Source: Oidiodendron maius Zn (lineage: Eukaryota; Ascomycota; Leotiomycetes; Myxotrichaceae). Taken from it: a stretch of DNA of 64,000 bases. Below are positions 17,935-64,000 of this stretch, piece after piece. The stretch lies in assembly GCA_000827325.1 (NCBI GenBank), contig KN832875.1, forward strand, positions 992,001-1,056,000. Direction: 5' to 3'. The number at the start of each line of letters is the position of its first letter. The first letter of the stretch is position 1. Made by a program: the position numbers and the translations under genes. The notes below the pieces were generated by a model, which was not told where the DNA came from, ran no database searches, and worked only from the letters and a program-made list of their open reading frames with translations.

Positions 17935-20900
17935 CTATTCCGTATCCTTCTTGGCGGCCTTTGTGAAAGGTGACGTCAAGAAGTCTACAACCTTTCCAAG
18001 CGCACCGAATATCGAGGAGAACCCGAATGTCCATCCACGGATCCGCACAGTGTAGATGAAGAAGTAGATCAGGAACCAGTTGCTCACACAGAAGCCGAGG
18101 AAGATACCAAAGTATCCCCACTTGTCCTTTGGCTCGATATTGAGCGTTCGCATAAAATCTACACCGGAGGTGAACTGGCAGTACCCGCAATCGGACGTCG
18201 CGTTCGGGTTAATGAGGTAGCCGCCGGCCTGGTTGATAAAGTCTTGCGCATACACAGCACAGGTAGATCCCGGAGGTGGGTTGAAATACGCCGCTTCCTG
18301 AGGCAAGCAGTGCACAGGGGTGTTGTCAAGGGCTGCGGATAGAACGCCGCCGATCCAGTAAGTGGACGGATTTAGATAGTATAACCAGTATCTCCAGAAG
18401 ACGGATAGTTGAGAGTACGGTCGAACGACGCCATTGAAGAGGGAGAAGATAACGAAGAAGAAGGGTAGGACGTTGGAGATGACTGTGAATGACGGAGCGA
18501 AAGCACAGATCCACTGACCCCAGCTGGCTTGGAAGAGGAACTTCGAAAATTAGTTGCAGCTCATGAGAGGACACATGAATCACTTACAAAGAGAACTGTC
18601 ATTAGATAGACATATCCAGAAGTGGAAGAGTCAGATGGAAGTCCAGATGGCCAGTACCACAGAAGCCAGTAGATGGTAGCACCGATAATTGCAATTGGGA
18701 TCTCGGTCACCGCTTGGGCAGTGCAGAAAGCAATCCAGCCATAGATTCTAGAAGGGAGCTCTCGTGCCTCCCATAACGCTCGGTTTTGATAGAATTTAGG
18801 TACCACGGAATTGACAATTGTAGGTGGAATGAGGATGATCAGGAAGCACGTGAACATTCTAACAAGGTAAGTTGCAAAGTCTGGAGGGGATGGGGTAGAA
18901 CGAGGTGGACTAACCTGTCCTGCATATCCGTGATGGAGTAACCTAGTTGCCAAAATGTGAAACCATTGAAGATGCCGATGATTACAGACACAAAGAGCTT
19001 GCCGTACAGATAAGATGGGTCTCTCCAATGCTGGATAAAGACTCGTTTTGTGAGTTCCATAATCTGGAGCGTGACGGGCGATGCAAATTCATACTGTACA
19101 GTGTCAAGCGGTGGTTGAGCTTGGCTTCTCTCTGCTTTGATATTTTGGATCTCCTCCATTGCCAGCCTAGCTTCTTCAGATCGAAGCCATTCGTCATTCC
19201 AGTTCAACTTCTTACCGTCTGCACGTTTACCGCCCTTCGCCGCGGTTTCCAAAATAAATTCGGCGACGTTCTTTTCAGGTGGGCAGTGAACATCTCTGTC
19301 GGCGAAGTATTTGACGACGGCTGATCCGTTCTCGCCAACAGGTCCAAAGTAGAATGTGTTTCCGCCAGGGTTGAGGGCGAGAATCATATCAAACTCCTGG
19401 ATGAGAATCGAGGAAGGCTGATGAATTGTGCAAATAATAGCTTGGCCAGAGCGTGCCAATTTCTTGAGAAATCGGACAATATTGTACGCAGATTGAGAGT
19501 CAAGTCCAGATGTTGGTTCATCCAAGAAGAGTAGCAGATTTGGTTTGGCAGCAAGCTCAACACCGATTGTCACCCGCTTGCGCTGTTCTACACCAAGGCT
19601 TCGGACAAGCGCATCCTGCATATCACCAAGCTCTAGAAGATCAATGATCTTATCCACATAAGAAATTTTGTCCGCTCTCGACACAGTACGATCTTGCCGC
19701 AGAATGGCAGAGAACTCCAGGGCTTCTCGAATGGTAGCAGTACCATCGTGAAGGTCCATCTGCTCGCAGAACCCAGTTCCTCGCTGGAACTCAGGGCCTA
19801 ATTGTCGACCATCGACAAGCATATCTCCAGCGACTACACCCATCTTTTGACGCTGTGAGAGTGTGTTGAGTAACGTCGTCTTTCCAGCTCCAGAGGCTCC
19901 CATCAAGGCGACCATGACCCCGGGTTTTGCATATCCGCTGACTTTATTTAGCAACTTCCGCTCTCCCCCGAGGTAGGGCACTGTGTATTCAACGTTTTCC
20001 CAAGTGAAAATGCTCTCCGACCCAGAAATCTCATCCAGGGCTTCAGTATCTGTGGCGTCTCCGTTGAGAACCTCGTTGGAGGAGTTGTTATTCTGTCCTT
20101 TGGTAGCTTTCTCAATATCTGTAGGCGCAGCACTAGCGGTCAATGATCTCTTGCTGGCTTTGGATTTCTTGTACTCCAAAGCTCCACCACCACCTGGAGA
20201 GAAGTCTAGCAGCTCGGCAGCAACGACTGTAACCAAAATATAGAGGACAGTAAACGCAATTACCACTCCAAAGTTTCTCCAAAGATGAGACCGAGTGTAT
20301 GAAAATGAGGTGCTAAGGTATCTTGAGCCCGGGAGAGTGAGAGAGCCAACTTCAGCACCCGTGACAGCGCAGCCTTGATAGGTGGGATTATCATATCCAG
20401 GACCGCTAGGAACAATCTGAGACGGAGCACAATCCATCACTCTGCTACTGAATTCGTTGCTCAAAACCGCTTCGAAGCTGTAGGAGATTGGATTTATATA
20501 ATAAAGCCAGCCGAACCATATATAATCGCTAGTTAATTGAGGTTTGGGAATAACGTATCCAGTGTAGATACTGCCAAATGTTAGTAACAAATAAATCGAC
20601 ATGTTTCACTGAAAATAACCCACATAAGAAGATTGAGGGCCAGGCCGGAAAAGCGAACGGCGTCGTCAATAGTGGGTGAGAGGGATGCGAACATGCGATA
20701 GAGAGCTGTGATGCAGAAAGTGGTGGTAAAAATGAAGAGGAGATAGATCCAGAATTTGCTAACGTCCACATCGAGACCGGTCATGAAATACTTCAAAGTT
20801 CATAAGCATACAGTAAAAACATACGCCGAGGGTTACTTAGCTTACCATTATAATGGAGAATGGAATGACCATCGTTAAAATCATAGGAAAATCTTGCAAT

Positions 20901-23080
20901 ACCCTTGCGATTACCACGGCAGACGGGCGATAGAAGGCATACCCTTTATGCCTAGCGATGATAGCTCTTCCGGAGACGGCCTTCATCAACTCTGACAGCT
21001 GAAGCCAGCCCAGGAAAAGAATCGAGAAAAAGAGCGCACCTCCGCGCGAGAATGCACCCGCAGTGTTGGTGGATTGTCCGTGGAAGAGGGAACCGACAAT
21101 CAATGCGTTGGAAAGGATGATGAAGAACTTTGTGTAAAGAGTAGTCTTGTCCCCCCATGTAAGCCAGAACTCACGTTTGGTACAGGTAAGCACTTGTCGG
21201 ATGAAAGAGACTGTATAATTGGAGTTTTTGGAAACAGTCTTCGACTTTGTCTCCTGGACAGACTGCTTAAATTTTCGAGCATCGGCGTGGTCTGTCTCCT
21301 GGAGCGCAGTTTCATAATCTACTACGCCTTGTAAAAGCCGTTTGTATGCCTCGCTCTCGCGGAAAGCTTTCTCTAACTCCACAGGGCCTTTCGGAATCGG
21401 TCCTTGGAAATCATCTCTGAATCTCCTCTCTATGGGATCCGTGCATGCAGTTAAGAAATCAGCAGTTGTCTGATCATCGGGGCTGTAGTAACCTAGGTCT
21501 TGGAAATAACGCCTAGCTTCCTTAGCAGGTCCAGAATAGACCATGCGCCCGTCGTCAATGAGTAGTACTTTATCCATCAAATTGTATATCTCCTCCCCAG
21601 CCTGATACAGGGTGACAAGGGTAGTCCTGTTGCTAATATCAGTCATAATCCGTAGTGATTTCGCATAATCGAGAGCTGTGGATGCATCCAACCCTCGAGT
21701 TGAATTGTCCCAAGCCACAACCGTGCTCTTCGTTGCGAGTGTTTCAGCAATGGAAACACGCTTCCGCTCACCACCAGAAACTCCTCGCATGAATACCTAT
21801 TCTGTCAGTTGAAGTGTCTTGCGGAGTTGAAGAACTAAGACTTACATCTCCAACGGGAGTGTAGCGGGTATGTGAAATGCCAAACATCTTCAACAGAGCA
21901 TTGATAATAATCGGGATGTCCTCTGCCTGGTGTTTCTTTGTCTTGTTAAGGAGAGAAAACCGGAGAGTTTGCTCTACAGTAAGAGTAGGGAAATGCACGT
22001 CATCTTCTTCGTTGTAATTGACCTCTCCTCTAAAGTTCTTGGTCTGTTCCTCCGCCGGAATGCCGCCATACGACACCTCCCCAGTAACGCCAGCAAATCC
22101 ATTTCGTTTATTGGCAATTGCTTTCAGGAAAGTGCTGCATCCACTTCCCGGTCGACCGAGGACCAAGAGCATTTCTCCATCTCTTACAACTCCAGTGAAG
22201 TCATTTATTAAATTACGCTTCTCTCCGTGTAAGCCAGGTGTAGGTAGGAAAGGAACTACTCTTGAGAGGAGCCTGTATAGATCTGGCCCAAAAGTCTAGG
22301 AGAGAGGGGTCAGCTATGTATGATGTGTGATTGAGTAGATGCAGCGACCCCAGCACTCTGAAAGGTATCATTGTAAGAGCAAGTCAATTGCTCAGATAAA
22401 ACGTTTCTTCAAGAAGTTGTCATGATTCAGAATACATCGTGAAGTAAGAAAGCTGGTGCCGAGAGAATGGTTATACTTACACCAATAATTGCAGCTGGCA
22501 GCGTCTTGACGAAGACAGCCGTCGCCCCAACTCCTTGGACGGTAAGATTCTTATACACAACTCCAATTTTTTTGGCCGACTGGTCAGCATCTCTCTTTTC
22601 AAAGTGTCCTTCTCGTAGGAAGTCACCCAGCTCGAAGTCATCGGAGTCGTCTCCTCTTTCCGTTTCATCTTCCTTGTCGTCTCCGTAGTCTTCATTTCCC
22701 TTCGTTTGCGCCTCAAGATCCGGGCCGGTGGCGGCTGTTGTCCGTGAGCGACGACTAGTGTTTGTGTTGGTTTTTCTTAGGCCAAGAGTATTGTGCCGGC
22801 GCCCATCCTCGGTTTTTTGGGTCCGCGTTTTTGAGATGTGGGAGAGTTCGTTTCGTAGGTCCTCGAATTCTTGCATGGCATCCTGGAAATTGACGGGACC
22901 GCCAACATCACGCTCACCCCAAGTTCCCGTTGGAACGGCACCAGAAGTATTGCCTTGGGGTGTTTCCCCTGATCCATCTGGGGCTATGTGAGTCTCGTCC
23001 ACATTGTGCAGAGGCGTGCGAGGCAGCTCGTCCCGCTCAGCGGAGTGCTGGAACATTGGCCCGCTCTTGGCCGAGAACAT
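17935..23080 (-). CDS. PDR-type (ABCG) full-size ABC transporter
   Basis: Seven exons, complement(17935..18540, 18588..18858, 18915..20570, 20624..20790, 20846..21796, 21846..22295, 22481..23080), 1566 residues. The order is nucleotide-binding then membrane domain, twice, as in pleiotropic drug resistance pumps of the plasma membrane. The first nucleotide site is degenerate as usual for fungal PDR pumps: Walker A GRPGSGCST (Cys for Lys), signature VSGGERKRVSIAE, Walker B VVAWDNSTRGLD. The second has a proper Walker A GASGAGKTTLLN, signature GVEQRKRVTIG and LLLFLDEPTSGLD. The N-terminal 170 residues are hydrophilic and acidic. Introns at 20791-20845 and 18541-18587 end in GAAG, yet flanking conserved residues (FSIIM/YFMTGLD, TVLF/FLFQASWGQW) fix these joins. 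The substrate is unknown; drug efflux is the family's usual role. Adjacent genes do not suggest a biosynthetic cluster. Confidence 0.93.
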
Positions 23081-29236: not shown

Positions 29237-30353
29237 CTACAATTTTTGCATAGCAGCCTAGATGAGCAGTTAGCAAATTTAAATGGTTGATGACATGGAT
29301 AACATACAATATCAGTTGACTGGACGTAGTCCTCAAACCCAGCAATCTCTTCCTGCAGGTCATCAAGACCGATTTTATCATCTTCGATGACCAAGGTGAT
29401 CTGCAATTTCTTGATCCCATAGCCAACTGGTACAAGCTTAGAAGCACCCCAGAGGAGACCATCCTTTTCGATACTGCGGACGGACTCTTCGAGGGCCTTC
29501 ATATCGGTCTCGTCATCTGGACCTTGGTCAGCATAACGCAGGCATCGTTTCGTCTCATAGTATACATACCCCAAGGCTTGATATCCATGGTGACAACAGA
29601 TTTGGCAGCTGGCTTAACTTTTCCCTCCTTCTTCTTCTTGTACTCAGCCAAACGTTCATTTCGGATTCGCTCGGCCTCGGCGTCTTCCTCCTCATCGTCG
29701 CTACCAAACAGGTCAACATCGTCCTCGTCCTCCTCCGCGGCAGGAGCCTTGGCTGGGTTCAAAGTTGCGGCGGTAACTTCAGGACCATATGAGGTATAAT
29801 CCTTGGATGCGTCACCCGGGAGGGTCGCAAACTCCTCGGAGTATGAGGCAATGTGCTTGTACCATCTAGCAGCGTGGGGGTATTTCGTGGCGTCTGGTGA
29901 CTCTTTGAGAGCCTTGAAGGAGACGACATCGGCTTGGGAGGGAGAGTATCTATCTAGTGTAAGTGCTGACTGCCAAAGGTAGAATAAGAATTGCGGATAG
30001 ACAAAACAGAAACTAATCAGAGGTGCACTTGAATGCAATGGCGATCGTCATATGACGGTTCTTGAGGCCGCTCAGTAACACGGACCAATGTTGCTCATCA
30101 TGATGTTTCGTTTAACAGTTGAAGCTGCCGAGGACACGCAGTAGCTACAACTGTCACAAAGGAGAGGGTGAAGGAACTTAAGCGCGAGGTTGTCACAACA
30201 TACCCAACAATGTATGAGCGGGTCGTCAACCAGCTGTTCAGTACTGAGTCAAAAGTCAATTTCGCTTGCCTGGGTGAAGATTGCGCTCATGTGGGGTTGG
30301 AGAAGTATCTTACCTGTTAGACCAGCATCTGTGAGAAAGTCGACGAACCCCAT
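29237..30353 (-). CDS. EFB1: Translation elongation factor eEF1B beta subunit
   Basis: Five exons, complement(29237..29257, 29308..29516, 29570..29949, 30204..30243, 30314..30353), 229 residues. It is the guanine-nucleotide exchange factor that reloads eEF1A with GTP during translation. The first three exons give [27 protein letters not shown] and [14 protein letters not shown], the N-terminal GST-C-like part; then an acidic linker ([20 protein letters not shown]) and the catalytic C-terminal domain from DIKPWDDETDM to DIAAMQKL. Exons 1 and 2 are only 40 bp each and the last is 21 bp, so gene finders may miss them. The 254-bp second intron is much longer than the others and houses the U18 snoRNA described separately. 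Transcribed divergently from HSP78. Confidence 0.96.
30009..30109 (-). ncRNA. snR18: C/D box snoRNA U18 (snR18), inside EFB1 intron 2
   Basis: On the minus strand the parts are: terminal stem GAAAC (30109-30105), C box ATGATGA (30101-30095), D' box CTGA (30075-30072), C' box ATGACGA (30051-30045), D box CTGA (30020-30017) and closing stem GTTTC (30013-30009). The stem arms are perfectly complementary. Directly before D' is the guide TTGGTCCGTGTT (30088-30077), complementary over 12 nt to AACACGGACCAA, a universally conserved LSU rRNA segment. By the D'+5 rule it selects the A of AACAC; in yeast U18 methylates A649 and C650 there. Budding yeast U18 is likewise encoded in an EFB1 intron, as I recall. 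The 3' end lies 59 nt before the splice acceptor, a usual distance for intronic snoRNAs. Ends are approximate. Confidence 0.93.
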
Positions 30354-30729: not shown

Positions 30730-33531
30730 ATGCTCTCAAGACAAGTCATGGTTCCTAGCCGGCGCATTGCTGCCATAGCTAACCATGCTCTTCGATCGGG
30801 AGCTAGAACCGCCGTAGCAGACGCAGCTCGAAGAAATCAAAATTTCCCTATAATCAGTCCGCTCTCTACGACTCTCTTTCGCACTTATGCCAATGGCAGG
30901 CCGCATCCTCCTGGCGGCACCCACCGCATGGATATGAGTGGAGGCGAGCAGCAGTCGGCATTGGAACAATATGGAGTCGACTTGACAGCGAGGGCTAGGG
31001 CTGGAAAGCTTGACCCTGTTATTGGGAGAGATTCGGAGATTAATCGAACTATTCAAGTGCTCTCTCGTCGAACCAAGAATAATCCCGTTCTTATTGGAAG
31101 CGCTGGAACCGGCAAGACTGCAATACTGGAAGGCTTAGCTCAAAGGATAGTTAGGGGTGACGTTCCAGAAAGTGTTAAAGACAAGAGGGTAATTTCTTTG
31201 GATCTCGGACAGCTCATTGCCGGTGCTAAATTCCGCGGAGATTTTGAAGAGAGGTTAAAGGGTGTCCTAAAGGAGGTACAGGAAGCTCATGGAGGGGTAA
31301 TTTTATTTGTGGATGAGCTGCACACTCTACTTGGATTAGGCAAAGCTGAAGGAAGCATCGATGCGAGTAATCTCTTGAAGCCGGCTCTTTCTCGGGGCGA
31401 ACTTCAATGTTGTGGGTTTGTATACCCTCAGACATAATCCCAATGTGCTTCACAGTTATGGGACAAAAATTCTTGTATAATATATACTAACTCTGATATT
31501 TTTTAGGGCTACGACCCTCAATGAATATAGAGCGATCGAAAAAGATGTTGCTTTGGCTAGGAGATTTCAACCAATTCAAGTAAATGAGCCAACAATTCAA
31601 GATACTATTAGCATACTCCGAGGAATCAAGGAAAAATACGAGGTTCATCATGGAGTAAGAATCACAGATGTATGTACTTATATCTTCTCACCGCTATTGC
31701 AGCCTAGCAGGCTGTGAGATAGATACTGACTACGATACAGGGAGCACTAGTGGCTGCTGCAACATACTCAAATCGATATATTACGGATCGGTTTCTCCCA
31801 GATAAGGTAAAGTGATTTATTGATATTCTTCTCCAATTTCTTTACCGCAGCTCTAATTATAATTATCCAACATTCTGAAGAAACGGTAACGTTGACTTCT
31901 GCCCAGGCTATCGACTTAATGGATGAGGCAGCATCCGGTTTAAGACTACAGCAAGAGAGTAAACCGGAGGACATAATGAATCTCGACCAACGAATCATGA
32001 CTCTTCAGATTGAACTTGAAAGCTTACGAAAGGAGACAGATATTGCGAGCCGAGAACGCCGCGAGAAACTTCAAACTGCCCTCAAAGAGTGCCAAGATGA
32101 GGCTGCAAAGTTAACGGAGAAGTGGGAGGAGGAAAGATCAGAAATCGAAGCGATCAAGAAGACAAAAGAGGATCTTGAAAAAGCACGAGTTGAACTTGAT
32201 CAAGCACAGCGGGAAAACAATTTTGGCCGCGCTGGTGAACTAAGATATTCGGTCATACCATCCCTAGAAGCCAAATTACCGAAAGACGGCGAGAATTCTA
32301 CAGAAACTACTGGAGAGGGCACGCTTATTCACGACGCTGTGACAGCAGACGACATTGCAGCGGTTGTTTCGCGAGTGACTGGAAGTCAGTACATCATCTC
32401 TATGAACATTGCGATCTCTTGACGATACACAATTTGCTAACAGGTAATAGTTCCAACAACAAAGCTTACGTCTGGACACGCGGAAAAATTAATACATATG
32501 GAGGATTCACTGAGTGAGTCAGTTCGGGGTCAAGACGAAGCCCTAACAGCTGTTTCGAACGCTGTCCGCATGCAACGCGCTGGCCTCAACGGGGAGAACA
32601 GGCCTCTTGCAAGCTTCTTCTTCCTGGGGCCCACTGGTGTTGGGAAAACAGAGCTTTGTAAGAAGATGGCAAATTTTCTGTTTTCGACCGAGTTGGCCGT
32701 TGTGCGATTCGACATGAGTGAGTTTCAAGAAAAGCATACCATATCACGCTTGATTGGGAGGTACGTATAGTTCTTGGCTCACTGCTTGGCATCTGATCTA
32801 ACCCATATCTCTAGTCCTGCAGGCTATGTTGGCTATGACGATGCCGGACAGCTCACAGAAGCTGTAAGGCGAAAGCCGTATGCTGTTTTATTGTTTGACG
32901 AATTTGAGAAAGCGCACCGAGACATTTCGGCGTTGCTGCTCCAGGTACTGGATGAAGGGTTTTTGACAGACAGTCAAGGCCACAAGATCGACTTCAGAAA
33001 TACCTTGATAGTTTTCACCTCAAACCTTGGTGCTGATATTCTGGTTGGAAATGATCCCTTGCACCCATATCATGAAGAACCCAATGGTGAAATAGCTCCA
33101 AACGTGCGGGACGCAGTCATGAATGTTGTCCAGAAAAGCTGTAAGCTCGTATTCTAGTCTATTCTTAGTATTACTGACTGATAATTCCAGACACGCCTGA
33201 ATTCTTAAACAGGATTGACGAATTCATCATCTTCAAGCGCCTGTCGCCTGATGCTTTACGGGATATCGTAGATATTCGTATTAAAGAGCTTCAAAAAAGG
33301 CTAGACGATCGAAGAATCACCCTTGAAGTCAGCGACTCTGTCCGACAATGGCTATCTGATCGGGGATATGATCCCAAATTCGGCGCACGCCCTTTGAACA
33401 GACTCATTGCAAAGCAAATTGGCAATGGTTTAGCAGACAAGATCATAAGGGGCCAGGTAAAAACTGGCGATAAAGCGGTTGTCAAGATCAATGAAATGGG
33501 CGATGGACTAGAGGTTGGCCCATGGGAGTAG
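30730..33531 (+). CDS. HSP78: Mitochondrial ClpB-type disaggregase HSP78
   Basis: Seven exons, 30730..31415, 31507..31669, 31741..31806, 31907..32384, 32451..32760, 32815..33140, 33191..33531, 789 residues. Hsp78 is a hexameric AAA+ chaperone of the matrix that works with mitochondrial Hsp70 to dissolve aggregates. The N-terminus is Arg-rich, poor in acidic residues and amphipathic, fitting a matrix presequence. The Clp N-domain is absent, as in yeast Hsp78. AAA1: Walker A GSAGTGKT (123-130), [13 protein letters not shown] coiled-coil middle domain follows. AAA2: [24 protein letters not shown], sensor-type FTSNLGAD and GARPLNRLI. The fourth intron uses donor GTCAGT and acceptor TAATAG and restores [13 protein letters not shown]. 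Ends with EVGPWE. Confidence 0.95.
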
Positions 33532-40835: not shown

Positions 40836-43361
40836 ATGGCTGGCTTCAGCTCTCTTAATCCTCTCAATATCACGAAGAGGGCCTTTCGTACACAGCATCC
40901 GGGGTTCTCCTCGCACCAACATGCTCACCCGAGAGATCTCGATCCTGAGAAACACTGCCAGATGGATGACTCTGACAGTGAGTCCGATTACTCGTCTTAT
41001 TCATCCTCTCCTTCCTCTCGAGGAACATCTGGTTCTTACTCTTCCTCTCGACCTATTTTACGCAAGCCTTCAACGGGTCCACCTTGGCGGCCAACATCAA
41101 TATCCTATAGAGTTCCGAACAGGATAATGCGATATCTCTGTTGTGCCTTGATTTTGTCGATCATGGTATTTATAATAAGCCTCATTCGAATGAGTATTGT
41201 ATCTTCAAATAGAGTGGATCTCGGGGATCTCGGAGAGCGACCACCGCCACCACCAGCACCTTGGGAGTCTTTTGAGTTTCTTTCTCGATACTACGGCGGG
41301 ATCCGAACTATTGTCCCGGCTTCTGAAAATCAACCTGAATATCCTCTAGCAATCGACGAACCTGCAGCCTCCAATGACACGTCAACTAAGGGGAATTTAA
41401 TCTCAGTTCGAGAGGTCCCCCTAAGCAAGCCATTCCTGGCTTATAGCAAACATACGTTAGAATCACATCTAACGGAATATACCCCAATCCAGGAATGTTT
41501 TCTTCATGCGTCTTCTACAATCAAGATTCCAAGCGTACAATACTATCAAGGAAGGCCCAGCGGATTTCCTGATAACGTTATGGGGTCATATGAAGTCTTG
41601 GGCTTGCCAGAAGATATCTGTTTTGAGAGGTACGGCAGGCTCGGGCCATATGGATATGGATACAGTTTAAGATCCGGAGGTACTGGAGCTGGCCAGAGTG
41701 GAGAAATGGAAGGTTCTGAGGACGTGTGGAAAACAACAACTGGTGTCAATCAAATAGACTACCGAACAGTCGACTGGGCGGATGCTCAGAAGAGATGCTT
41801 CTCGTCTAACGCCGCTCGTTTTCGACAGAAAACAATTACCACCCAGTCGCCTAGTGACGTCAAAACAGTTGGTAAAGATATCCCGAGCGATAAACAAGAC
41901 GATTCGGCGCATGGAACAAATACAAACACGACAACCAAGAGTGTGAAGCTCTTGCCTCGAACCGCCGTTGTTATACGTTCTTGGGATAGTTTCGATTATA
42001 AAGAAGAGGACATTTTGCATCTCAGAGCTATGATATCGGAACTCTCACTAGGTTCTGGTGGAGAGTATGACGTGCATCTCCTCGTTCAAGTTAAAGACGA
42101 GGCAAAACACCCAATCTGGGCCGATGAAGAGATTTACCAGCAGCACTTGCAGGAATCCGTACCTCAGGAGTTTCATGGAATCACTACACTCTGGAGCGAG
42201 ACGCAGATGCTCATGTTATACCAAGGCATCTTTGATACATTCGCACGAGGGCCGGATCTGCCAGTTCATGGTTCATATAGAGGACTCCAGATGGCCATGC
42301 AATACTTTGCCCACAGACACTCCGAGTATGATTTCTTTTGGCACTGGGAAATTGATATCCGATATACTGGGCACTACTATAATCTTTTCTCGCAGATTGA
42401 CGAATGGACCAAGGCGCAACCTCGCAAGGGATTGTGGGAACGGAATAGTAGGTTTTACATTCCATCTGTCCACGGCTCTTGGGAAGACTTTATGCACATG
42501 TCTAGAGTGCAGACTGAGATGGGCACTGAAAGCTCGAACAATATGTGGTCTGGCCTAAATGGCGCAAAGACACCTAGCGATCGTCCTAAAACAGATAAAC
42601 CGATCTGGGGACCAGAGAGACCAAAAGACCCAGAGGACTGGTTTGAAATTGACGGAGACCCAATTCCTCAAACCACTTTCGACAAAGACAAATATGAATG
42701 GGGCGTCGGTGAAGACGCTGATCTCATTACTCTCAACCCGATATTCAACCCAGACGGAACGACCTGGCTGCTTACTAGCGATATCACTGGCTACAACGAT
42801 ACCGAAGGCCTTCCACCCCGACGTGCAGCGATTGTGAGTTCTTCGAGGATGTCCAGACGTTTGTTGACTACCATGCACCGTGAAACTGCATTCAAGAAAC
42901 ATCATGCATTCACGGAAATGTGGCCTTCCACTGCCGCTCTGCATCACGGATACAAAGCAGTCTATGTCCCTCATCCGGTGTACGTTGACCGAGAATGGCC
43001 GACTGAGTATCTGGCCAATGTGATGAATGCAGGCCGGAATGGTGCAACCGGCGGGACAAGAACGAGTGTCTTCGGAGAAAGGGAGCATAATCTTCTGGGT
43101 ATGACTTGGTATTATAACGCAGGATTTGCGCCAAATCTGTGGAAGCGGTGGTTAGGGTTGAAAGTCAATAATGAGGGAGGGGAGGAGTTTGAGATGACCG
43201 TTGATGAGGGAAGGAGTGGTATAGGTGTTAATGGGATGAAGGGTGGTGAAGGCAGAATGTGTTTACCGCCGATGCTCATCCATCCTGTTAAAGCGGTGGA
43301 ACTGCCGGTTGAAGGGATAATACTCGAAGAGGAAACCCCTAAAAGTGATCCGAGTGCGTGA
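40836..43361 (+). CDS. DUF3405 family type II membrane protein
   Basis: One exon encodes 841 residues without introns. A cytosolic N-terminus rich in Ser and Asp (DSDSESDYSSYSSSPSS) precedes one membrane helix (RYLCCALILSIMVFIISLI, about residues 99-117), so topology is type II, as for Golgi glycosyltransferases. The large luminal part has blocks I recognise from DUF3405: VIRSWDSFDYKEEDILHLR, YDVHLLVQVKDEAKHPIW, YDFFWHWEIDIRYTGHYY and HHAFTEMWPSTAALHHGYKA, with an acidic EIDIR that resembles a DxD metal site. A glycosyltransferase-like role is inference; the family has no assigned reaction that I know of. Lies convergent to CUS2, only 178 bp away. Confidence 0.88.
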   Translation: MAGFSSLNPLNITKRAFRTQHPGFSSHQHAHPRDLDPEKHCQMDDSDSESDYSSYSSSPSSRGTSGSYSSSRPILRKPSTGPPWRPTSISYRVPNRIMRYLCCALILSIMVFIISLIRMSIVSSNRVDLGDLGERPPPPPAPWESFEFLSRYYGGIRTIVPASENQPEYPLAIDEPAASNDTSTKGNLISVREVPLSKPFLAYSKHTLESHLTEYTPIQECFLHASSTIKIPSVQYYQGRPSGFPDNVMGSYEVLGLPEDICFERYGRLGPYGYGYSLRSGGTGAGQSGEMEGSEDVWKTTTGVNQIDYRTVDWADAQKRCFSSNAARFRQKTITTQSPSDVKTVGKDIPSDKQDDSAHGTNTNTTTKSVKLLPRTAVVIRSWDSFDYKEEDILHLRAMISELSLGSGGEYDVHLLVQVKDEAKHPIWADEEIYQQHLQESVPQEFHGITTLWSETQMLMLYQGIFDTFARGPDLPVHGSYRGLQMAMQYFAHRHSEYDFFWHWEIDIRYTGHYYNLFSQIDEWTKAQPRKGLWERNSRFYIPSVHGSWEDFMHMSRVQTEMGTESSNNMWSGLNGAKTPSDRPKTDKPIWGPERPKDPEDWFEIDGDPIPQTTFDKDKYEWGVGEDADLITLNPIFNPDGTTWLLTSDITGYNDTEGLPPRRAAIVSSSRMSRRLLTTMHRETAFKKHHAFTEMWPSTAALHHGYKAVYVPHPVYVDREWPTEYLANVMNAGRNGATGGTRTSVFGEREHNLLGMTWYYNAGFAPNLWKRWLGLKVNNEGGEEFEMTVDEGRSGIGVNGMKGGEGRMCLPPMLIHPVKAVELPVEGIILEEETPKSDPSA

Positions 43362-61893: not shown

Positions 61894-64000
61894 GATGACA
61901 GCTGGCCGAGACGATGCAGATGATCTTTGAAGAGATGAGGTTATGCGCAGGTATATCCCGCCGTTTCCGCCACTGTCAAGCCGCAATTCTGCACAGCCAC
62001 AGAAGGTAGATCGGTTATCGTGCTGCTAGCGACAATTTAGTTCTCAAGCAAAATTATTTTCCCTCGCGAACTTTCTCCAAATATCCATCTCATCCTCCAG
62101 CTAAACCAGGATGACGCCGGACCAGCCCATCCAATATGGGATCTTACTTCCCTTCATGGATCAAGCCTTTTCTTCTTCCCTATGCGTCTAGCGACATGAT
62201 GATCCGAAGCCTAGCCAACAGTGTAAGTTACCGCACAACTTCTCCCAACTACCATCATCTATTTGTCTTATTTTGATGAGAATATTACACAATTGAACAA
62301 TCCAACTCTTACATTTCAATGGGGATTTGTATTTTCTATTTCTGAACTGCTAGCATGGATGATGCGGAGCTATTCCACACATCGAATGAAGTTTTACTAA
62401 TTCCCATCAGGGTTTTACTGCTCAAATGACACCTTAGACAGTATAACGCTTCCAGATTGTTGCAACAGAAGTTGCTAAACTACCGCATTAGACTCATATT
62501 TGTGCAGTTATTGGTTCAAAAGGTTCGTGAACGATATTTCACATATTTTCTCCACCAAGGGCGTGATGATTTCAAGACACAAATAGGAATTCCTCATTCT
62601 GAAGTTATCATGTTGATTCCGTCTCTATTAAGTTTCAGCCTTGTCTGACCCTCACATACTCTCCACTATTGCTGTTGCTTTGAGGTTCATGTGCACTTAC
62701 TGACCTGGCTGGGCAATTAGGTATATATCTCCCAATTCTATTCCGCTTTCGCTATTTCATGAAGAATTTTGAACGAACGGGCGGACAGACTGCGCGCTCC
62801 TACGTATACTGTCATTAAAGCAAGGCGTACAAACCTTGTGAGAGCATATGGTTTGGAAGTGCTTGTTGAGAACTCGTCAGCTGACTAGAGCGAGACCGGT
62901 GGAATTTTCAAATGATACATAGATCGTACATGATACTAACACGATGCTCTAGGTATATCATATGATCTCTTTTAGATTTTATTTCTTGGACCATAACCTA
63001 TATGATGATCTGTTTATTCACACTGTTTGAGGCTTTGGGTCCACCTTCGCCGATGAACATATTTACAAAAATCTGATTTAATGAGGTATGTGAAGCTGAA
63101 TGGACGATGTAGGGACCCAGCTAACATTGCCTAGCCTGAAATTTGTTTATGGTTTTTACATCTTGCAGAATCACTGCGGATTGCGGAAAAATTTCTGCTA
63201 ACACTTTTGTCTTACTAGCATATAACACGAACAGAAGCCGACTAATAATTTGGTTGCATGAGAAGGTAAGGTAAATTTTCTACCAGTCTCTTATCGATGC
63301 CAGCATGATAGCTCTGATGAATCCAAATATTTCGCTGTGTTCTTTCCGAGTTAAATCATTGAAGAAACATATATTTCACCTTGGAGAACTGAGATAGTTT
63401 CTCTTACTTGTACAGACGTTCCAGAAACTCTTTATTGAAGGAGTCAGCAGCTAATATAATGTTCAGGTAAATTACAACTCCTGCATATCTGCGGTGAAAA
63501 TACAATATCTCGTATGGTACTTTGCGCTATAAATAGAGTAACATTATTTATTATTTACAACTCAATGCTGACTATGATGCCGCGAGACATGTTGAAGGTT
63601 TGTTGGATGATCTCAGCCATAAATCCTCAAGGTCAATTGCATGAATTAAAGGCCAGCCGCAAATGGGTATCGAGTGCCAAAGAAGAGTTATGCGTGAAAA
63701 TAGGTAGAAACGCCTAATTTCAAGCCACATAGAACAATAAAGAAGGGTTTGCTTAACGCCTGGGGTATACCTCGTGTCGTAAACGCAGTTGCGCAGAAAT
63801 CATCCTTGAGCAAGTCTGAAGACACATCCAAACCAATTTCAAGACAACCTATGCATGCTTCAGTCAAAAATTAATGCATTCAGGACATGACCCTCCTCCC
63901 ATCCTTCAGTTTCGAGAGACTCAGAAGGTCGCAAGAGCCTTCCCATGTACGCAAGTTTGAGACGCTTTGGTGGTTGGAGCTGGAAGAATTTTAGTCAAAC
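61894..64000. other. AT-rich gene-free region at right edge
   Basis: About 2.1 kb with no frame longer than 93 codons that looks like protein. Composition is clearly more AT-rich than the gene blocks, especially from 62250. No tandem array, tRNA or recognisable transposon was found. The first part includes the promoter of the gene to its left. Confidence 0.5.

Follow-up and report, generated by a model that had tools for sequence, protein, structure and literature searches.

Evidence for a U18 box C/D snoRNA in the second intron of the EFB1 gene of the filamentous ascomycete Oidiodendron maius

We analysed a window of 64,000 nucleotides of Oidiodendron maius Zn (assembly GCA_000827325.1, contig KN832875.1, positions 992,001 to 1,056,000 of the forward strand), and all positions given below count from its first letter. 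Its minus strand carries, at 29237–30353, the coding region of EFB1 (eEF1B-alpha), which we modelled from the sequence and from homology as five exons and four introns. The splice-joined translation was complete at 229 aa, with the C-terminal residues ...VQSTDIAAMQKL* and AAMQKL as the last residues of the product. This product matched the Pfam families EF1_GNE (E=2.2e-31) and EF-1_beta_acid (E=3.9e-14) as well as the eEF1Ba chain 1f60_B (E=4.8e-32), in agreement with an earlier note on this DNA, which had named EFB1 as the host of a U18 snoRNA.

The four introns measured, in order, 70, 254, 53 and 50 bp, so that the second is indeed far longer than its neighbours, as had been remarked before (254 against 50–70 bp). 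Intron 2 has GT...AG ends, joins its exons in the right frame and splits the codon of Gly27. Its 3' end (29950–29975, minus strand) shows no clear CTRAC branch point, CTTAC being the best candidate by eye; introns 3 and 4 differ in this. Folding of the whole of intron 2 gave no stability signal relative to shuffled sequences (z 0.30, with 125 of 200 shuffles equally stable), and a tRNA scan found no tRNA.

Other genes lie in the window. Divergent from EFB1, with the two start codons about 380 bp apart, the plus strand at 30730–31200 holds the start of a ClpB-like gene (PDB ClpB 4hse_A, E=1.5e-34), which we take to be Hsp78-like. At 18839–21790 on the minus strand, two adjoining open reading frames, one matching PDR_CDR, ABC_tran and ABC2_membrane and the other ABC2_membrane, are perhaps a single intron-containing transporter gene, and a long uninterrupted open reading frame on the plus strand (40836–43361) encodes a DUF3405 protein (E=1.6e-215); the domain scan behind these last matches covered nine of the ten open reading frames of at least 300 aa.

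The features of EFB1 and of its second intron are as follows.

29237–30353, minus strand: EFB1 (eEF1B-alpha) coding region, five exons, four introns, 229 aa
29950–30203, minus strand: EFB1 intron 2, 254 bp, GTATGT...TAG, phase 2 after coding base 80
30009–30109, minus strand: U18 C/D snoRNA candidate including the 5-bp stem, from boxes, guide, shuffle scan and a sub-cut-off SNORD18 match
30105–30109, minus strand: 5' arm of the stem, GAAAC, weak alone
30095–30101, minus strand: box C, AUGAUGA, matching RUGAUGA
30077–30088, minus strand: D' guide, UUGGUCCGUGUU, pairing with LSU 646–657 (yeast numbering; 657 by our assumption)
30080, minus strand: fifth base upstream of D', pairing with the equivalent of yeast 25S A649
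30072–30075, minus strand: box D', CUGA, consensus
30060–30065, minus strand: putative accessory guide, UCAAGA, pairing with LSU 640–645
30045–30051, minus strand: box C', AUGACGA, one mismatch to RUGAUGA, without insertion
30017–30020, minus strand: box D, CUGA, consensus
30009–30013, minus strand: 3' arm of the stem, GUUUC, weak alone

Boxes C, D', C' and D thus all lie, in the correct order, on the minus strand inside EFB1 intron 2, where the earlier note had placed them; the intron runs for 102 bases upstream of box C and for 67 bases downstream of box D. The 5-bp stem starts 94 nt from the 5' splice site, somewhat deeper in the intron than the 41–60 nt that mainly separate splice site and snoRNA in Neurospora crassa (PMC2780460). 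The proposal that the snoRNA explains the length of the intron is borne out in part, but at 101 nt or less it leaves the remainder of the 254 bp unaccounted for.

With spacing limits that were chosen after the candidate was known, the four-box layout occurred in none of 20,000 dinucleotide-shuffled introns, and the corresponding scan of both strands of the real window found two loci, the U18 candidate and the Afu_455 snoRNA at 62563, against none in each of 40 shuffled windows. The scan is strict rather than sensitive, since it missed two of the three Rfam-supported snoRNAs of the window (snR51 and Afu_294). These three, Afu_455, snR51 and Afu_294, stand in tandem on the plus strand at 62559–63395 and are the only snoRNA matches above the Rfam cut-offs in the window, two of them being Aspergillus families; Afu_455 is also snR41-like and Afu_294 snoZ101-like, both below cut-off. 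The trio resembles what we take to be the fungal snR41–snR51–snR70 cluster. These snoRNA matches, like the four introns of EFB1, the DUF3405 protein and the PDR-type transporter, suit a filamentous ascomycete.

The guide itself was found once in the window when both strands were searched for the 12-mer. A 17-base pattern of guide plus D', allowed up to three mismatches, gave three matches, of which one was exact and was the candidate; shuffled sequences gave a mean of 0.43 such matches, and 2 of 100 shuffles reached three. When the pattern was applied to viral contigs, all eight matching stretches lacked a box C within 40 nt upstream, and we dropped them as chance occurrences. A fortuitous resemblance within a long intron, for which the commonness of the terminal stem and of the accessory pairing described below might be argued, would have to account both for the absence of the four-box layout from every shuffled intron and window and for an exact 17-base match where 0.43 were expected even with three mismatches, and we give that reading practically no credence.

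As the earlier note had stated, the 12-nt D' guide is complementary to LSU rRNA. It pairs with AACACGGACCAA, and the five-base rule places the predicted methylation at the equivalent of A649 (coordinates of Saccharomyces cerevisiae); the last target base, A657, is our assumption. We also take the targets of yeast U18 to be Am649 and Cm650, two labels that co-occur in published mapping work. Ten of the guide bases pair without mismatch at 646–655 of the LSU sequence given by printed fungal primers, namely LR3R (639–655 of S. cerevisiae) and NL-4, and primer NDL223 from the same table adds A656 (PMC3338786). Published numbers for the U18 target vary: one survey gives a single A each for yeast (Am647, two off from the A649 used here), human (Am1313) and Arabidopsis (Am660) (PMC3511168), and a list for Trichophyton rubrum gives Am651, Gm654 and an 18S site (PMC3890542).

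A covariance-model search, which had been proposed as a check, placed the U18 family first but at a score below its threshold. RF00093 (SNORD18) was the best Rfam family at 32.7 bits, against a gathering cut-off of 41, which is a detection cut-off and not a biological trait, and the candidate was not listed when the window was scanned at gathering level. SNORD18 was the best of four Rfam matches listed for a 121-nt stretch (E=6.3e-05), its E-value rising with search size to 0.00047 for 901 bases and 0.033 for the window. The match to this model of 71 positions spanned 30106–30050 only. We nevertheless name the RNA U18, because guide and target, and not a model cut-off, define U18. The low score would also suit a decayed or unexpressed copy, the working U18 gene lying elsewhere in the genome, as would the weak stem and the presence of two copies in N. 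crassa (PMC2780460). We consider such a pseudogene very improbable, as neither the guide nor any of the four boxes shows damage and the surrounding intron, with its GT and AG ends, keeps the reading frame. Taken together, we are close to certain that EFB1 intron 2 contains a U18 box C/D snoRNA, as regards both its identity and its placement.

The terminal stem contributes little to this conclusion. A perfect 5-bp stem, as had been described, is present between GAAAC (30109–30105) and GUUUC (30013–30009), but it does not abut the boxes, from which it is set off on either side by three unpaired bases (AUC and UUA), and it is weak by itself because 862 of 20,000 shuffled flank pairs (4%) also contained at least five consecutive base pairs. 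In the fold of a 112-nt stretch the stem lengthens to nine pairs past a bulge. The two 18-nt flanks pair most stably in another register, which joins 30111–30104 with 30008–30001 in eight pairs, one of them G-U; 263 of 5,000 shuffles were at or below the duplex energy of this rival. The stem therefore neither proves nor disproves the snoRNA and, since it is weak, offset from the boxes and rivalled by a better-pairing register, the mature ends are uncertain. C/D snoRNAs generally end 4–5 bases outside their boxes. On this rule and on the lengths published for two other filamentous fungi (89 and 95 nt, see below), our guess is that the mature RNA would measure about 90–97 nt.

Between D' and C', the bases UCAAGA could pair with LSU 640–645, directly adjoining the main duplex. 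In yeast U18, too, the segment from D' to C' carries an accessory guide, whose pairing was reported to have no part in methylation (PMC5389607). Equally good pairing arose when the 20-nt spacer was shuffled (509 of 20,000) and in random 20-mers (216 of 20,000). We also considered the D guide region as a guide and rejected it; its best run within LSU 637–655 was UUCAAG (6 nt, LSU 641–646), which does not adjoin box D. That this run is as long as the accessory one lowers our confidence in the latter and, as some shuffles match it too, the putative six-base pairing to LSU 640–645 is suggestive only.

The proposed route from gene to modified rRNA is as follows. U18 would be transcribed within the EFB1 pre-mRNA and, as in yeast and Fusarium, freed by splicing and debranching of the intron, after which exonucleases would trim the RNA to the snoRNP formed on boxes C/D and C'/D'. 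In Fusarium graminearum lacking Dbr1, U18 falls and lariats of intronic snoRNAs accumulate (PMC9606315), so that release by debranching has support in a filamentous ascomycete. In the pairing register described, the D' guide would bind LSU AACACGGACCAA and fibrillarin would 2'-O-methylate the A equivalent to A649.

The earlier note had predicted methylation at the next C as well, which we find doubtful. In yeast, the two neighbouring methylations directed by U18 have been tied to a D' box AUGA and a C' box with an extra base, AUGAGUGA; in an artificial yeast snoRNA, changing D' to CUGA lowered methylation at the second site without abolishing it and left the first unchanged, and deletion of the extra C' base alone had little effect (PMC5389607). 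These features of the yeast two-site activity are absent from the candidate. Because its D' is the consensus CUGA and its C', AUGACGA, lacks the one-base insertion, we predict that it probably directs mostly one methylation, at the A649 equivalent, with the neighbouring C weakly methylated or unmethylated, a prediction that leans on an artificial yeast construct whose second site was still methylated, though less. The table for N. crassa gives one target A per U18 copy (PMC2780460), in agreement with a single site, although a listing of this kind does not show that the adjoining base was assayed.

We next turn to the origin of the placement. The intron interrupts EFB1 after coding base 80 in phase 2, and we take the first exon of S. 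cerevisiae EFB1 to hold 80 coding bases, so that the match in position rests on this assumed yeast exon. Human U18 lies instead in RPL4. Because the same gene hosts U18 in two budding yeasts and the intron position is equal (the yeast position being assumed), common descent is the simplest reading, and the view that the linkage predates the split between these fungal lineages is supported to that extent. We accordingly hold it very probable that the O. maius placement descends from a U18-bearing EFB1 intron in the common ancestor with the budding yeasts. The alternative is that a genuine U18 colonised EFB1 independently in the O. maius lineage and in budding yeast, snoRNAs being able to move among the introns of highly expressed translation genes; the same gene and the same intron position and phase speak against this, with the caveat that the yeast coordinates are assumed, and we regard it as improbable.

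The published record bears on both sides of that question. EFB1 is in print as the host of snR18 in S. cerevisiae, where the gene is also called TEF5 (PMC2705663; PMC8522698), and snR18 of Candida albicans also lies inside the EFB1 intron (PMC2926782), which argues against separate colonisations and confirms that the budding-yeast U18 is EFB1-hosted, as the earlier note had said. In favour of them, snoRNA mobility is documented and orthologous introns can hold unrelated snoRNAs (PMC3511168); in N. crassa the two intronic U18 copies, CD46A and CD46B, whose target is 26S-Am635, lie on chromosomes VII and I (PMC2780460), so that U18 copies do duplicate or move. Taking eukaryotes as a whole, links between snoRNAs and their hosts are unstable (PMC3511168), but a kept pairing has precedent within fungi, as the snoRNA intron of RPL7 keeps its position in 82% of fungal species and that of NOG2 in 72% (PMC8476143), and as intron and snoRNA were both retained in 64 of 84 cases in Saccharomycetaceae after genome duplication (PMC4202332). 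Scans of prokaryote and viral collections for fungal relatives found none: the EFB1 protein gave 130 pattern stretches in prokaryote genome contigs and 45 in viral contigs, none of either confirmed, the box-C-plus-guide pattern gave none in prokaryote genome contigs, and the LSU target pattern gave none in viral contigs.

Under common descent, the motifs also allow a simple prediction on the timing of two-site methylation. The EFB1-U18 intron would be ancestral to ascomycetes, O. maius would keep the one-site form, and two-site U18 (A649 and C650) would be a later change in budding yeasts, in which the C of D' was lost and one base was gained in C'; we would put the chances of this scenario at about even.

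The observation holds, although much of it was to be expected, as U18 is a known snoRNA and its EFB1 host is known from yeasts. The literature searched on EFB1-U18 and on fungal intronic snoRNAs did not name EFB1 as a U18 host in a filamentous fungus, although the association may well have been reported already. With O. maius, a filamentous ascomycete joins a pairing of host gene and snoRNA that is in print for two budding yeasts, and such pairings are unstable across eukaryotes (PMC3511168) yet sometimes kept among fungi (PMC8476143). Otherwise its value is mainly for annotation, since the Rfam cut-off misses the EFB1 copy of U18 in this species.

Compared with known systems, the candidate resembles U18 of S. 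cerevisiae, the two having in common the EFB1 host, a guide before D', an accessory guide between D' and C' (putative here) and an intron after coding base 80 (assumed for yeast). They differ in C' and D', which are AUGAGUGA and AUGA in the yeast consensus, with two adjacent methylations, and AUGACGA and CUGA in O. maius. Relative to RF00093, box C, the guide and D' align, whereas the part from C' to D does not and the score stays below gathering. The snR18 of C. albicans resembles the candidate in its host, the EFB1 intron (PMC2926782). Like the candidate, CD46A and CD46B of N. crassa are intronic U18 homologues with a D' guide and one target A, but they are 89 nt long and present in two copies (PMC2780460). 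TRnc_1157 of T. rubrum is likewise an intronic SNORD18/U18, of 95 nt, and differs in its list of predicted targets (PMC3890542).
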